From a virus, in IMG/VR virus record IMGVR_UViG_3300044641_006875, positions 1 to 45,854 of that record: DNA of 45,854 bases, one strand, 5' to 3'. Both the position numbers and the translations under genes were made by a program. Each line of letters starts with the position of its first letter. Position 1 is the stretch's first letter. The notes beneath the pieces were generated by a model. The model saw nothing but the letters and a program-made list of their open reading frames with translations. It ran no database searches and was not told the origin of the DNA. Shown here piece by piece: positions 1,060-45,196 of this stretch.

Positions 1060-1900
1060 AAAAAAAAACACTGAGATTACATGTTTTAGTGATTGACTTT
1101 GAGACATTATTTGTTTCTTCTCTTATCCACTACCTTTTGAGTAGTACCAATCAGTGACGGTCAATTAGATTAACCAATCCTAAAGTCGTTAGATACTCTT
1201 TTAATACTCATTACTCTTCGAGGTTGCCACCCCAATTAGTCCTTGCGGGACTAGAGAACTTTCTCAAAAATCATGTTGGGCTTGGGACCCTTCATGGCCG
1301 AGAACCCCTCTCGACTGTGTAGTCACCTGTCTCCAACGACTGACGAGCACTTTTCCTTGTTTTATTTAAGTTGTTAAACCGTAATTAACAAAGTTTTTGG
1401 TTCCGAATGTGGAAAGTAGCGGCTCGTCTGCCAGCCAAGCCACCTTTTGGGCGACTCGATACTAAACTACTCTCTGAGATATCCCTACCTCCATATTTCT
1501 GGACTCCTTCATAACTGATGTCTTGGTAGACATCTGATAAGGATGATAACAGCACCACCTGTTTTTCACCATACCTTTCGGTTTTAAGATTCCCATCATA
1601 TTGAATCACACAATTGTAAGATTGGAAGTCCTACTTCTTGTAATAACTCTACAGATTATTCTTATTGGTGTTCCCACCTCAATCAAACAACTCGGATTGC
1701 TTGATCACTAAACCACTTTCCTTACAGTGTCACCCTCAGTACTTAAGGTTCAATGATATTCTGCTTGCCTACTCAAGTTCCATTACTGAAACCGCAAAAC
1801 GCTTAACCAAACGTTTCACTTTATCCCACTTTCATGGTTTATTTTAATCGACCATAGGCGGCCAATATTTTTAATTCAAAGAACTATTTCCTTAACTCTT
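1060..1900 (-). ncRNA. Candidate giant structured RNA (~840 nt, GOLLD/ROOL-like context)
   Basis: About 840 nt without a credible gene; the open frames inside are short and do not look like proteins. On the - strand it has a perfect Bacteroidota-type promoter just upstream (1904-1934) and ends in a run of nine U (1060-1068). GC content is clearly higher than in neighbouring genes. Local hairpins are dense: a 9-bp stem at 1682-1705, 7 bp at 1517-1534, 6 bp at 1237-1253, 5 bp at 1129-1145, 4 bp at 1764-1777 and 5 bp at 1220-1233. Its length and its place beside a phage tRNA cluster recall the large GOLLD and ROOL RNAs, but I cannot align it to either family; the family assignment is inference. 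A novel class is equally possible. Confidence 0.6.
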
Positions 1901-1903
1901 TTA

Positions 1904-1934
1904 CAAAGATAGATAATGTTTTTCAAAAAACAAA
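1904..1934 (-). promoter_or_regulatory. Host-type (Bacteroidota sigma) promoter for the large RNA
   Basis: On the - strand TTTG (1934-1931), exactly 19 nt, then TATCTTTG (1911-1904). This matches the TTTG-N19-21-TAnnTTTG consensus of Bacteroidota housekeeping promoters. Predicted start is near 1897-1901. It sits in the short gap after the radical-SAM stop codon. Confidence 0.75.
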
Positions 1935-3248: not shown

Positions 3249-3325
3249 TGGTGGACCAGCCTGGGCTCGAACCAGGGACCTACTGATTATGAGTCAGGTG
3301 CTCTAACCTACTGAGCTACAAGTCC
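3249..3325 (-). tRNA. tRNA-Met (CAT)
   Basis: Cloverleaf read by eye: acceptor GGACTTG/CTGGTCC (one mismatch), D stem GCTC/GAGC, anticodon loop CTCATAA with CAT at 3289-3291, T arm CCTGG-TTCGAGC-CCAGG. It is the only tRNA here with an encoded CCA end (3249-3251). A CAT anticodon could be initiator or elongator Met, or the lysidine-modified Ile tRNA; I cannot decide. Confidence 0.9.
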
Positions 3326-3332
3326 AATGCGG

Positions 3333-3439
3333 TGCCGGAGGAGAGACTGGTTACTCACACGATGTCCATTTCGGATACACCACCCACCTAGGAAGGGAAC
3401 GTCTAATAGTTGTACACACTATCATTCCGCCACTCCGGC
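3333..3439 (-). ncRNA. tRNA-like element with perfect acceptor stem but no normal T arm
   Basis: A 7-bp closing stem GCCGGAG (3439-3433) with CTCCGGC (3340-3334), and a 5' half that resembles Leu/Ser tRNAs (TGGCGGAAT). The interior departs from a tRNA: a 7-bp hairpin with loop GTGTACA follows directly, and no GTTCRA T loop precedes the 3' strand. There is no CCA. It lies between tRNA-Met and the next gene. It could be a decayed tRNA, an interrupted tRNA, or a tRNA mimic. Confidence 0.4.
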
Positions 3440-3447
3440 ATATATTT

Positions 3448-4077
3448 TTATTCTACTTCTTGATTAGTTGTTGGATCATATTGAAATTTAATATATGTTA
3501 ATCCAATTTCTAAATCATTATAGATTTCTATTTTTTCTTCATCAATATTGTATGAACACATGTCACAACCCCAAAGAGAATTTCTTAACCCTTCTTTGAA
3601 TTTTTTCATGTCATCAATTCTAATCAAACTAAACACGCACTCTAAAGTTTGTGGAAGGTATTTCTTTTCTAACATTTTGTTATGGTTAAAATATGCGTCC
3701 CATTTTTCTTTATCCCCCGAATTACCTCTTTCATGTGTGCAACTATTAAACCACTCATCATCCAATCTATTATTTTCAATTTCATCTTTCTCACTAACCT
3801 TAATAACATTTCTTGAATGTATCATATCTGTCGATAATGTTGGTAAATAATTATCAACAATATTTTCACCGATATAGAATCCTAATTGGTAATCCATGTT
3901 AACATTTTTAAGATACTCTTTATTTTCTTCAATCACTTTTTCTTTATACTCTGGTGATCTAACTTCTTCCAATATTTTATTTAAAGTTGATCTTGAATTA
4001 AATTCATCTAATGATTGTATAAATGTTTTCCCATCTTCATTTGGGAATGTTTCTTCTAAGTATTTTTCTCTATTCAT
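3448..4077 (-). CDS. Hypothetical protein in the tRNA cluster
   Basis: A 209-residue, charged protein without a signal peptide or membrane segment. I do not recognise it. I placed the start at ATG 4077 (MNREKYLEETF); the longer open frame to 4152 would run through tRNA-Tyr. Cysteines cluster near the C-terminus (WGCDMC) and one lies in the middle (CTHERG), which may or may not bind metal. It is flanked by the tRNA-like element and tRNA-Tyr and so is probably transcribed with the tRNAs. Confidence 0.65.
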   Translation of the reverse strand: MNREKYLEETFPNEDGKTFIQSLDEFNSRSTLNKILEEVRSPEYKEKVIEENKEYLKNVNMDYQLGFYIGENIVDNYLPTLSTDMIHSRNVIKVSEKDEIENNRLDDEWFNSCTHERGNSGDKEKWDAYFNHNKMLEKKYLPQTLECVFSLIRIDDMKKFKEGLRNSLWGCDMCSYNIDEEKIEIYNDLEIGLTYIKFQYDPTTNQEVE

Positions 4078-4092
4078 TATATTTTCTTTATG

Positions 4093-4173
4093 TTGGGATA
4101 GACGGACTCGAACCGCCGAACTCGGAGAGAGCTGATTTACAGTCAGCCGCAATTGCCACTATGCGATATCCCA
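4093..4173 (-). tRNA. tRNA-Tyr (GTA)
   Basis: Perfect 7-bp acceptor TGGGATA/TATCCCA, D stem GCA/TGC, anticodon loop CTGTAAA (GTA), a long variable arm as usual for bacterial Tyr, and T arm GGCGG-TTCGAGT-CCGTC. CCA is not encoded. Confidence 0.9.
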
Positions 4174-4180
4174 ATTTATG

Positions 4181-4262
4181 TGACCAAGGAGAGACTCGAA
4201 CTCTCACGTCTTTCAACACTAGTGCCTAAAACTAGCGTGTCTACCAATTCCACCACTCGGCC
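4181..4262 (-). tRNA. tRNA-Leu (TAG)
   Basis: Class II tRNA. Acceptor GGCCGAG/CTTGGTC with wobbles, anticodon stem CTAGT/ACTAG with loop TTTAGGC (TAG), variable arm, and T arm GAGAG-TTCGAGT-CTCTC. No encoded CCA. Confidence 0.9.
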
Positions 4263-4274
4263 ATTGTGTTGACG

Positions 4275-4425
<151 letters not shown>

Positions 4426-4464
4426 AGCGTCTGTTCCGTCACTTATTTCTAAGTCATTACATTG

Positions 4465-4550
4465 TACCTGGGGCGGGAGTCGAACCCGCACGAGCCTTAC
4501 GGCTCACAAGATTTTAAGTCTTGCATGTCTACCAATTCCATCACCCAGGC
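4465..4550 (-). tRNA. tRNA-Leu (TAA)
   Basis: Class II tRNA: acceptor GCCTGGG/CCCAGGT, anticodon arm AAGA-CTTAAAA-TCTT (TAA), variable arm GAGCC-GTAA-GGCTC, T arm GCGGG-TTCGACT-CCCGC. TTA is the dominant Leu codon in this phage, so this tRNA fits its needs. Confidence 0.92.
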
Positions 4551-4608
4551 ATGATGTTTTACAATATATCAAAGAACTTTATCAAATATAAGAATAATAA
4601 ATTATAAA

Positions 4609-4642
4609 ACAAAAAACCCGAACATTTTTTATTTGTCCGGGT
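4609..4642 (-). terminator. Rho-independent terminator after the small outer-membrane protein
   Basis: ACCCGGACA/TGTTCGGGT stem with one mismatch and a 9-nt loop, followed on the - strand by TTTTTTG and further T residues. It separates gene 4665-5078 from the downstream tRNAs. Confidence 0.8.
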
Positions 4643-4664
4643 CTCGAAATAAATTTAAGCTTTA

Positions 4665-5078
4665 TTATTTTAATTTATATGATAACCCCAACCCTGGTGT
4701 AAAATTAGAACCAACAAGGTTTCCAATTAACCATAGTTTTAAATCTGTTGATTTTAATGCATTGTAACCAATGAAAGCATTTATTTTGTTTTCATGGTTA
4801 ACTGGTTGAACACCAAGACCAATTAAAATTTTATCTGGTTGAATCATCTTTAACACACCAAATTTCATCTGTGAAGAAAGTGATCCAGTTTTTTGATTAG
4901 CTAATTGCTGATCGTTATAGGGTGCACCAACGTATAACCCCCATGTGTTTTTTAATACGCCGGCCGTAATGTAACCATCTAATCCTTTATTTGTTCCTGA
5001 AACGAACACCTCTCGTTGTCCGTAGGTCACTGCCTTCACTCCCAATAGCATCATGACCAATATGATTTTTAGTTTCAT
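4665..5078 (-). CDS. Small exported beta-rich (outer-membrane-like) protein
   Basis: A 137-residue protein starting with a Sec signal peptide (MKLKIILVMMLLGVKAVTYGQ, cut probably after the GQ). The mature part alternates hydrophobic and polar residues and ends GLGLSYKLK, as in small Bacteroidota outer-membrane barrels. I do not recognise a family. It sits between tRNA-Glu and a terminator. An 11-bp inverted repeat overlaps the start codon (5077-5112), which suggests control of translation or RNA processing. Confidence 0.7.
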   Translation of the reverse strand: MKLKIILVMMLLGVKAVTYGQREVFVSGTNKGLDGYITAGVLKNTWGLYVGAPYNDQQLANQKTGSLSSQMKFGVLKMIQPDKILIGLGVQPVNHENKINAFIGYNALKSTDLKLWLIGNLVGSNFTPGLGLSYKLK

Positions 5079-5112
5079 CTATATAGAGACCGTAGTCCCT
5101 GTCTATATAGAT
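5077..5112 (-). promoter_or_regulatory. Hairpin overlapping the start codon of gene 4665-5078
   Basis: Perfect 11-bp inverted repeat ATCTATATAGA (5077-5087) and TCTATATAGAT (5102-5112) with a 14-nt loop. The AT of the start ATG is part of the stem. A TATTTATC box overlaps its upstream arm (5110-5117). Confidence 0.6.
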
Positions 5113-5135
5113 AAATATAAACTTAAAAGTGTTTG

Positions 5136-5207
5136 TACTCGGTACGGGATTCGAACCCGTGCTACGTCCGTGAAAGGGACGCGACCTAACCACTAGTCGA
5201 ACCGAGC
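5136..5207 (-). tRNA. tRNA-Glu (TTC)
   Basis: Acceptor GCTCGGT/ACCGAGT, anticodon loop CTTTCAC (TTC) on stem CGTCC/GGACG, T arm ACGGG-TTCGAAT-CCCGT. No encoded CCA. Confidence 0.92.
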
Positions 5208-5212
5208 AAGTG

Positions 5213-5299
5213 CGGAGGCTCAGGGATTCGAACCCCAGATACCGTTTCCAGTATGACGGTTTTCAAGACCGTTCCATTCAACCACTCTGGCAAGCCTCC
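5213..5299 (-). tRNA. tRNA-Ser (TGA)
   Basis: Class II tRNA: perfect acceptor GGAGGCT/AGCCTCC, anticodon arm ACGGT-CTTGAAA-ACCGT (TGA), variable arm of about 18 nt, T arm with TTCGAAT loop. Discriminator G, no encoded CCA. Confidence 0.93.
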
Positions 5300-5307
5300 A
5301 ATAAATG

Positions 5308-5381
5308 CGGACCGGACGGGACTCGAACCCGCGACCTCCGCCGTGACAGGGCGGCATTCTAACCAACTGAACTACCGATCC
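5308..5381 (-). tRNA. tRNA-Asp (GTC)
   Basis: Acceptor GGATCGG/CCGGTCC, anticodon arm CCGCC-CTGTCAC-GGCGG (GTC), T arm GCGGG-TTCGAGT-CCCGT. Discriminator G. It is the first tRNA of the cluster in the direction of transcription. Confidence 0.93.
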
Positions 5382-5844: not shown

Positions 5845-5875
5845 CAAATATAGATATAATTTTTCAAATTACAAA
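5845..5875 (-). promoter_or_regulatory. Host-type (Bacteroidota sigma) promoter for the ~190-nt RNA
   Basis: On the - strand TTTG (5875-5872), exactly 19 nt, then TATATTTG (5852-5845). The architecture is the same as the promoter of the 840-nt RNA. Predicted start is about 5838-5841. Confidence 0.78.
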
Positions 5876-44497: not shown

Positions 44498-45196
44498 TTA
44501 ATCTAAAAATCCACCTAAAACACCATCATATAGTAATTTGTATCGTTTAAGCGATATTCTAATCTCTTTTGTTGATAATGATGTCATTTCTCTTAGAGAT
44601 AGGAGGATTAAATTCTTATTAAATTTGTTACCATCACCAATTTGAAAGATCCTATCAAAATTGCTGAATATCTCCAAAAGGGCGTAACCTAATTTTTTTT
44701 CATTATCTGTTAACTCTTCAGTCTCAATAAAATCTTCAAGTTTATTTGTTAGGTTGATAATGACTTCAGAATAATCTATATGATATTCATCGATTGTATA
44801 TGAAAAATCAACCCTGCTCTCAATATCTTCAGAAATATCCTCATATGATATACTTCTGTTTTGATCTTTTGTATCCTTTTGGATGGCCCCCATTAAGTAG
44901 TTCTTACATATGGTACCAAAATAGGAATACGCTTTGTGATTTTTTGTATGGTCAAATTTATTTATTTTAGTTATAAGAAAAGACATTGTATCTGTATGTA
45001 AGTCCTCAAATTCAAAATCTTTTCTATATAACTTGTATCTTCTTATGATACTCTCAACCATTATAATTAGGGGTTCTCGTAAATATTCGTTGAATATCTT
45101 GTTTCTTTCTGCATCGTCACTACTTTCTAGGTAATTAACTACCGCCTTTTCTTGATCCTCCCCAAAATAAACTTTTTGGGTACGTTTTCTTGGCAT
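44498..45196 (-). CDS. gp55: Late transcription sigma factor (T4 gp55-like)
   Basis: A 232-residue sigma70-family protein. Region 2 is visible: MVESIIRRYKLYRKDFEFED, LHTDTMSFLITKINKFDHTK, then HKAYSYFGTICKNYLMGAIQ, as in T4 gp55 and relatives. A region 4-like C-terminus is weak or absent (LSTKEIRISLKRYK). It should recognise the short late promoter without a -35 element; the recurrent TATTTATA boxes in this window are the natural candidates. It overlaps the end of the glycosyltransferase gene by 1 nt. Confidence 0.85.
   Translation of the reverse strand: MPRKRTQKVYFGEDQEKAVVNYLESSDDAERNKIFNEYLREPLIIMVESIIRRYKLYRKDFEFEDLHTDTMSFLITKINKFDHTKNHKAYSYFGTICKNYLMGAIQKDTKDQNRSISYEDISEDIESRVDFSYTIDEYHIDYSEVIINLTNKLEDFIETEELTDNEKKLGYALLEIFSNFDRIFQIGDGNKFNKNLILLSLREMTSLSTKEIRISLKRYKLLYDGVLGGFLD

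Follow-up and report, generated by a model that had tools for sequence, protein, structure and literature searches.

A GOLLD RNA in a T4-like phage lies behind a Bacteroidota-type promoter and a putative rRNA-type boxA leader

The minus strand of a 45,854-base virus record from IMG/VR, analysed over its whole length and called the window here (G+C 0.324), carries a genuine full-length GOLLD RNA at 1863-1068, in which the 5' and the 3' domains both covary. Between this RNA and a Bacteroidota housekeeping-type promoter lies the boxA core GTTCTTTGA (1884-1876), ~20 nt past the -7 box. Judged from this 9-nt match, the leader would work like a boxA leader, and GOLLD is probably transcribed by host polymerase that Nus factors convert into an rRNA-type antitermination complex. 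An RNA of the GOLLD or ROOL kind had been guessed in the original prediction, and it proved to be GOLLD: the 3' domain (minus strand, 1474-1068) matches Rfam family RF02032 over the complete model positions 1-416 with 315.5 bits and an E value of 1.3e-89, against a gathering score of 150 (cmscan). Only a handful of natural RNA-only cages are known, and GOLLD forms one of them. The RNA alone is one more member of that family, and the novelty sits in its transcription unit.

The window encodes a T4-like set of phage proteins, namely terminase, portal, prohead protease and major capsid, and the closest relatives of the terminase, 30% identical, come from Flavobacterium phages. By this gene content the window belongs to a T4-like phage, and its host would most likely belong to the Bacteroidota because of the promoter type and these nearest terminases. 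No isolated Bacteroidota phage with a GOLLD was found in INPHARED by nucleotide similarity. Eight tRNAs were located by ARAGORN at 3249-5381 on the same strand as GOLLD, which agrees with the predicted position of a large RNA near the phage tRNAs. The segment at 3441-3327 (minus strand) has tRNA-like ends (GCCGGAG...CTCCGGCACC) flanking ~110 nt; neither ARAGORN nor Rfam calls a tRNA there, and it folds no better than shuffles.

The promoter TTTG-N19-TATCTTTG was found on the minus strand at 1934-1904 as originally described, with TTTG at 1934-1931, a 19-nt spacer and TATCTTTG at 1911-1904, and transcription would start near 1897. On the two strands of the window, TTTG-N19-TATNTTTG occurs at three sites (-1934, -4613 and -5875), while ~0.2 are expected from the box counts, and these sites precede GOLLD, tRNA-Leu (4550) and the tRNA cluster (5381). 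A loose pattern, TTTG-N17-21-TAnnTTTG, is not enriched over the whole window (6 sites vs 3.5 in shuffles), and the informative promoter evidence comes solely from RNA genes with the exact N19-TATN form and from a comparative test. For the latter, pattern scans of IMG/VR together with an HMM returned ~155 GOLLD loci, of which 56 non-redundant ones with upstream sequence were kept. In 49 of 54 GOLLD leaders TTG-N17-24-TAnnTTTG stands no more than 160 nt ahead of boxA, with one antisense occurrence and a shuffled mean of 0.3; the comparison thus supports the predicted use of the host housekeeping sigma factor. E. coli-type sigma-70 sites were rejected, as they show no excess over chance.

The second promoter of the window (4613-4569, minus strand) has the form TTTG-N19-TATATTTG and is followed by GTTCTTTGA at 4577-4569, upstream of the tRNA-Leu at 4550-4464. 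The tRNA cluster promoter at 5875 is without boxA. A gene-poor structured stretch (5845-5382, minus strand; fold z -3.3) lies between this third N19 promoter and the tRNA-Asp cluster; it has no Rfam match and is possibly a further noncoding RNA.

The motif GTTCTTTGA is the top 9-mer of the GOLLD leaders and is present on the sense strand within 1 kb upstream in 50 of the 56 non-redundant loci and on the antisense strand in none, counts that are not independent events because the leaders share ancestry. The sequence around boxA and its distance to the RNA vary among related leaders. Within 610 kb of GOLLD contigs the motif occurs 82 times: 55 copies are in GOLLD leaders, which make up 3.9% of positions, 7 are at most 150 nt before tRNAs, 3 are before tmRNAs, and 17 are elsewhere (94.8% of positions). 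Furthermore, GTTCTTTRA lies at most 150 nt upstream of four of the five tmRNAs on the 56 representative contigs. Phage tmRNA genes near GOLLD were noticed in L005, L006, L011, L214, L115 and L065.

A short boxB-like hairpin directly precedes boxA in 40 of 54 GOLLD leaders, vs 8.3 in shuffles, and its stems differ in sequence yet still pair (TCAGGA/TCCTGA, ATCGGA/TCCGAT and CTTGGT/ACCAAG). This hairpin-boxA order is the boxB-boxA order of the E. coli rRNA leader. No clear boxB-like hairpin is seen in the leader of the window, where GTTCTTT can pair weakly with AAGGAA upstream, no better than in shuffles. Such a hairpin is present in E. coli rRNA leaders and is not known to be demanded of every boxA leader.

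The motif is absent from the leaders of four Streptococcus phage GOLLDs (L263, L416, L417 and L418) and of one Acinetobacter phage GOLLD (L004), and the single GCTCTTTGA in L416 sits within an upstream CDS. Because these five GOLLDs from other hosts are without it, boxA is not a general or required GOLLD feature. One of two huge-phage GOLLDs (L003) also has no boxA, and the exact motif is absent from the one ROOL locus examined. A search for prophage GOLLDs in GTDB genomes gave two pattern matches, neither of which is GOLLD by Rfam. One further locus, L225, carries two GOLLD copies on opposite strands of one contig.

The same 9-mer recurs in the presumed host phylum. Of 60 Bacteroidota 16S leaders, 30 contain exact GTTCTTTGA (antisense 0; shuffled 0.03) and the other half variants or no motif; with at most one mismatch it is present in 45 of the 60, mostly at about -80 to -180. 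A GOLLD-independent scan of IMG/VR for TATCTTTG followed by boxA yielded 123 sites among the loci returned. Sites with the full promoter and boxA stand before GOLLD or a tRNA in 14 of 43 assessable cases, vs 2 of 70 for promoterless sites (Fisher P 2e-5). In this 123-site sample, 18 promoter-plus-boxA leaders precede no recognised gene: L308, L302, L307 and ~15 other loci lack a tRNA, a GOLLD and any nearby ORF of at least 60 aa, and their leaders are candidates for preceding noncoding RNAs. Promoter and boxA together offer a sequence handle for further untranslated stable RNAs in Bacteroidota phages. No earlier report linking boxA to Bacteroidetes, CRISPR or phage tRNAs was found in the open-access literature searched, nor one of GOLLD with Bacteroidetes.

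In E. coli, the boxA consensus is GYTCTTTAANA and the Nus complex protects from Rho (PMC5725501). PMC4807359, PMC6614801 and PMC10250234 describe boxA RNA binding NusB-NusE, and a Nus complex that blocks Rho-dependent termination and aids rRNA folding. By analogy, the host polymerase, carrying its housekeeping sigma factor, would start near 1897 soon after infection, and NusB and S10 (NusE) would bind boxA in the nascent leader to form an rRNA-type antitermination complex. This complex would cross ~900 nt of untranslated structured RNA without Rho termination, may help co-transcriptional folding as it does for pre-rRNA, and would stop at the terminator at 993-966. The GOLLD product would then self-assemble into an RNA cage, by homology to the solved GOLLD. 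A boxA has a plain reason here, because a long untranslated RNA is the type of transcript exposed to Rho. Leaders of this type also stand before some phage tRNAs and tmRNAs, so that GOLLD appears to be handled by the phage like a stable RNA belonging to the rRNA class. Within this phage group an rRNA-type leader is kept in almost every GOLLD, which suggests a need for abundant GOLLD and for its processive transcription by the host polymerase, and the boxA leader makes a direct test of GOLLD transcription possible. A broader proposal, to which we give even chances, is that Bacteroidota phages keep a stable-RNA regulon of GOLLD, tRNAs and tmRNA under host rRNA logic (housekeeping promoter, boxB-like hairpin and boxA), in which the Nus complex shields GOLLD from Rho and chaperones the co-transcriptional folding of the cage, and GOLLD would be made and assembled in the manner of rRNA.

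The window leader resembles the E. coli rRNA operon leader (PMC10250234, PMC4807359) in having a promoter, a boxA and a long untranslated structured RNA, with the hairpin present in most relatives. It differs in that it drives a phage RNA and is without the hairpin, and Nus binding is putative here. In the lambdoid phages, the boxA-boxB of the nut sites recruits the phage N protein on early mRNAs. The GOLLD leaders would share with nut sites the exploitation of boxA and host Nus factors by a phage, whereas the relatives have the hairpin-boxA order and the RNA is noncoding.

Could GTTCTTTGA instead be a part of the RNA that serves its maturation or makes a tertiary contact, or else a regulatory DNA site of the phage, leaving GOLLD an ordinary transcript? 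Conservation of the motif among homologous leaders, and in the window its weak pairing with the sequence just upstream, would fit such a role. However, the distance from the motif to the GOLLD fold varies widely (406 to 515 nt from boxA to the Rfam start in most loci), while its spacing from the -7 box clusters at 26-28 nt throughout the set. The motif also precedes the unrelated tRNA and tmRNA genes of the same phages and the host 16S genes, and the GOLLDs of other hosts manage without it; we therefore regard this explanation as unlikely.

We give a still lower chance to late production of GOLLD, through read-through from phage genes lying upstream or a phage sigma-like factor, with the host-type promoter playing a minor part. 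The window does encode a protein (44498-45196, minus strand) that weakly matches (E 2e-4) a family of RNA polymerase sigma factors and is possibly a phage late-transcription factor, and in another phage GOLLD expression reportedly rises during lysis, according to work cited in PMC12286853. Against this stands the retention of the promoter in 49 of 54 leaders.

The RNA itself extends beyond the Rfam model. Its 5' domain (1863-1475, minus strand) is homologous to that of 54 other GOLLDs, and a 5'-domain motif is common to 55 of the 56 non-redundant loci. The predicted gene-free, structured stretch of raised G+C was confirmed: G+C is 0.38-0.445 over 1100-1700, whereas the sequence immediately before the promoter has 0.20-0.30. 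The folding energy of the 806-nt RNA is -227.1 kcal/mol; shuffles give -197.8 (sd 8.6), which corresponds to a z of -3.4. From an alignment of 55 GOLLD sequences (A1), a structure of 223 pairs was built on the 43 members that do not belong to the window's clade, and was then scored on the 12 that do, window included; identity between the two sets is at most 75%. In the 12 held-out relatives 96.0% of cells are paired, vs 38.6-44.0% with slid partners, and double-sided changes occur at 105 of the 223 pairs, vs 17-24 in the slid controls. For the 5' domain (116 pairs) the values are 95.3% paired vs 37-41% slid, with double changes at 61 of 116 pairs vs 12-14; the 3' domain has 96.6% paired and double changes at 43 of 104 pairs. 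The covariation among homologues on which the original prediction had staked itself is thus present in both domains.

These data leave ROOL, HEARO, OLE or a novel class of large RNA with next to no probability. ROOL (RF03087) is likewise a large, cage-forming phage RNA and would fit the size, the phage location and the tRNA neighbours (PMC12286853), but it is a separate family, and cmscan of 900-2000 gave GOLLD as the sole Rfam match up to E = 1, with zero matches to ROOL, HEARO, OLE or any other family, all of which are rejected. The GOLLD match covers the full length of RF02032, so that the new class originally held possible is not supported, and the 5' domain of the window aligns with those of other GOLLDs. 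A coding region or a chance structure, which overlapping ORFs of up to 74 codons might suggest, is just as implausible given the structural covariation in held-out relatives and the many length changes in the alignment, and no conserved protein coding was found across the region.

GOLLD env-38, the only GOLLD whose assembly has been demonstrated, forms a 14-mer RNA cage (PMC12286853). The window RNA shares with it a conserved 3' domain, a less conserved 5' domain, a variable linker, a length of ~800 nt and a phage location near tRNAs; it differs in residing in a Bacteroidota-type phage. Its boxA leader and downstream canonical terminator are features unmentioned in that paper (PMC12286853). 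The variable A/U-rich linker (1413-1351, minus strand), an unpaired stretch of the Rfam alignment within the 3' domain, contains no tRNA by ARAGORN. The linker of the solved GOLLD lies disordered within the cage, and the cargo possibilities named are the RNA's own linker, tRNAs, ribosomes or others (PMC12286853). That structure has a symmetric kissing loop, L21a, with a GC or CG dinucleotide, as bridge B8 (PMC12286853). A hairpin loop of the window reads CGCAA, and UCGAA is found in L191, L165 and L002; this candidate symmetric GC loop may correspond to L21a. By homology with env-38, the window GOLLD would assemble into a cage too.

The 3' end departs from what had been expected. The promoter and the U9 run were correctly placed in the original prediction, which had overlooked boxA at 1884-1876 and the canonical intrinsic terminator AGTCAGAAGAAATTCTGACT-T8 at 993-966 (minus strand), conserved in L011, L009, L207, L106 and L213. 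The nine U are indeed present on the same strand at 1068-1060, right behind the GOLLD fold, but they are probably not the transcript end. They are preceded by merely a short stem with a large loop. The U-run is kept at the same place in 45 of 56 GOLLDs, with a terminator hairpin directly before it in only 9, and a tRNA lies at most 200 nt downstream in 10 of 56. We rejected U9 as the likely terminator because of this short, large-loop stem, the downstream tRNAs and the canonical terminator in close relatives, and the true end is likely the hairpin-U8 terminator at 993-966, ~90 nt past U9. The likely transcript is ~930 nt long and not the ~840 nt first proposed; it would reach from ~1897 to 966 and enclose the GOLLD fold (1863-1068).

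The trailer between the fold and the terminator (1059-1000, minus strand) comprises a hairpin at 1059-1040 followed by GGUGGAA...CGGCCC, and a similar element of hairpin, GGUGGA and GGCCC is found in 8 of the 12 GOLLDs of the window's clade. The hairpin stems differ among clade members with pairing preserved, and the fold of 1068-964 has a z of -3.25. The trailer is possibly a tRNA relic, because other GOLLDs have a tRNA at the same place.
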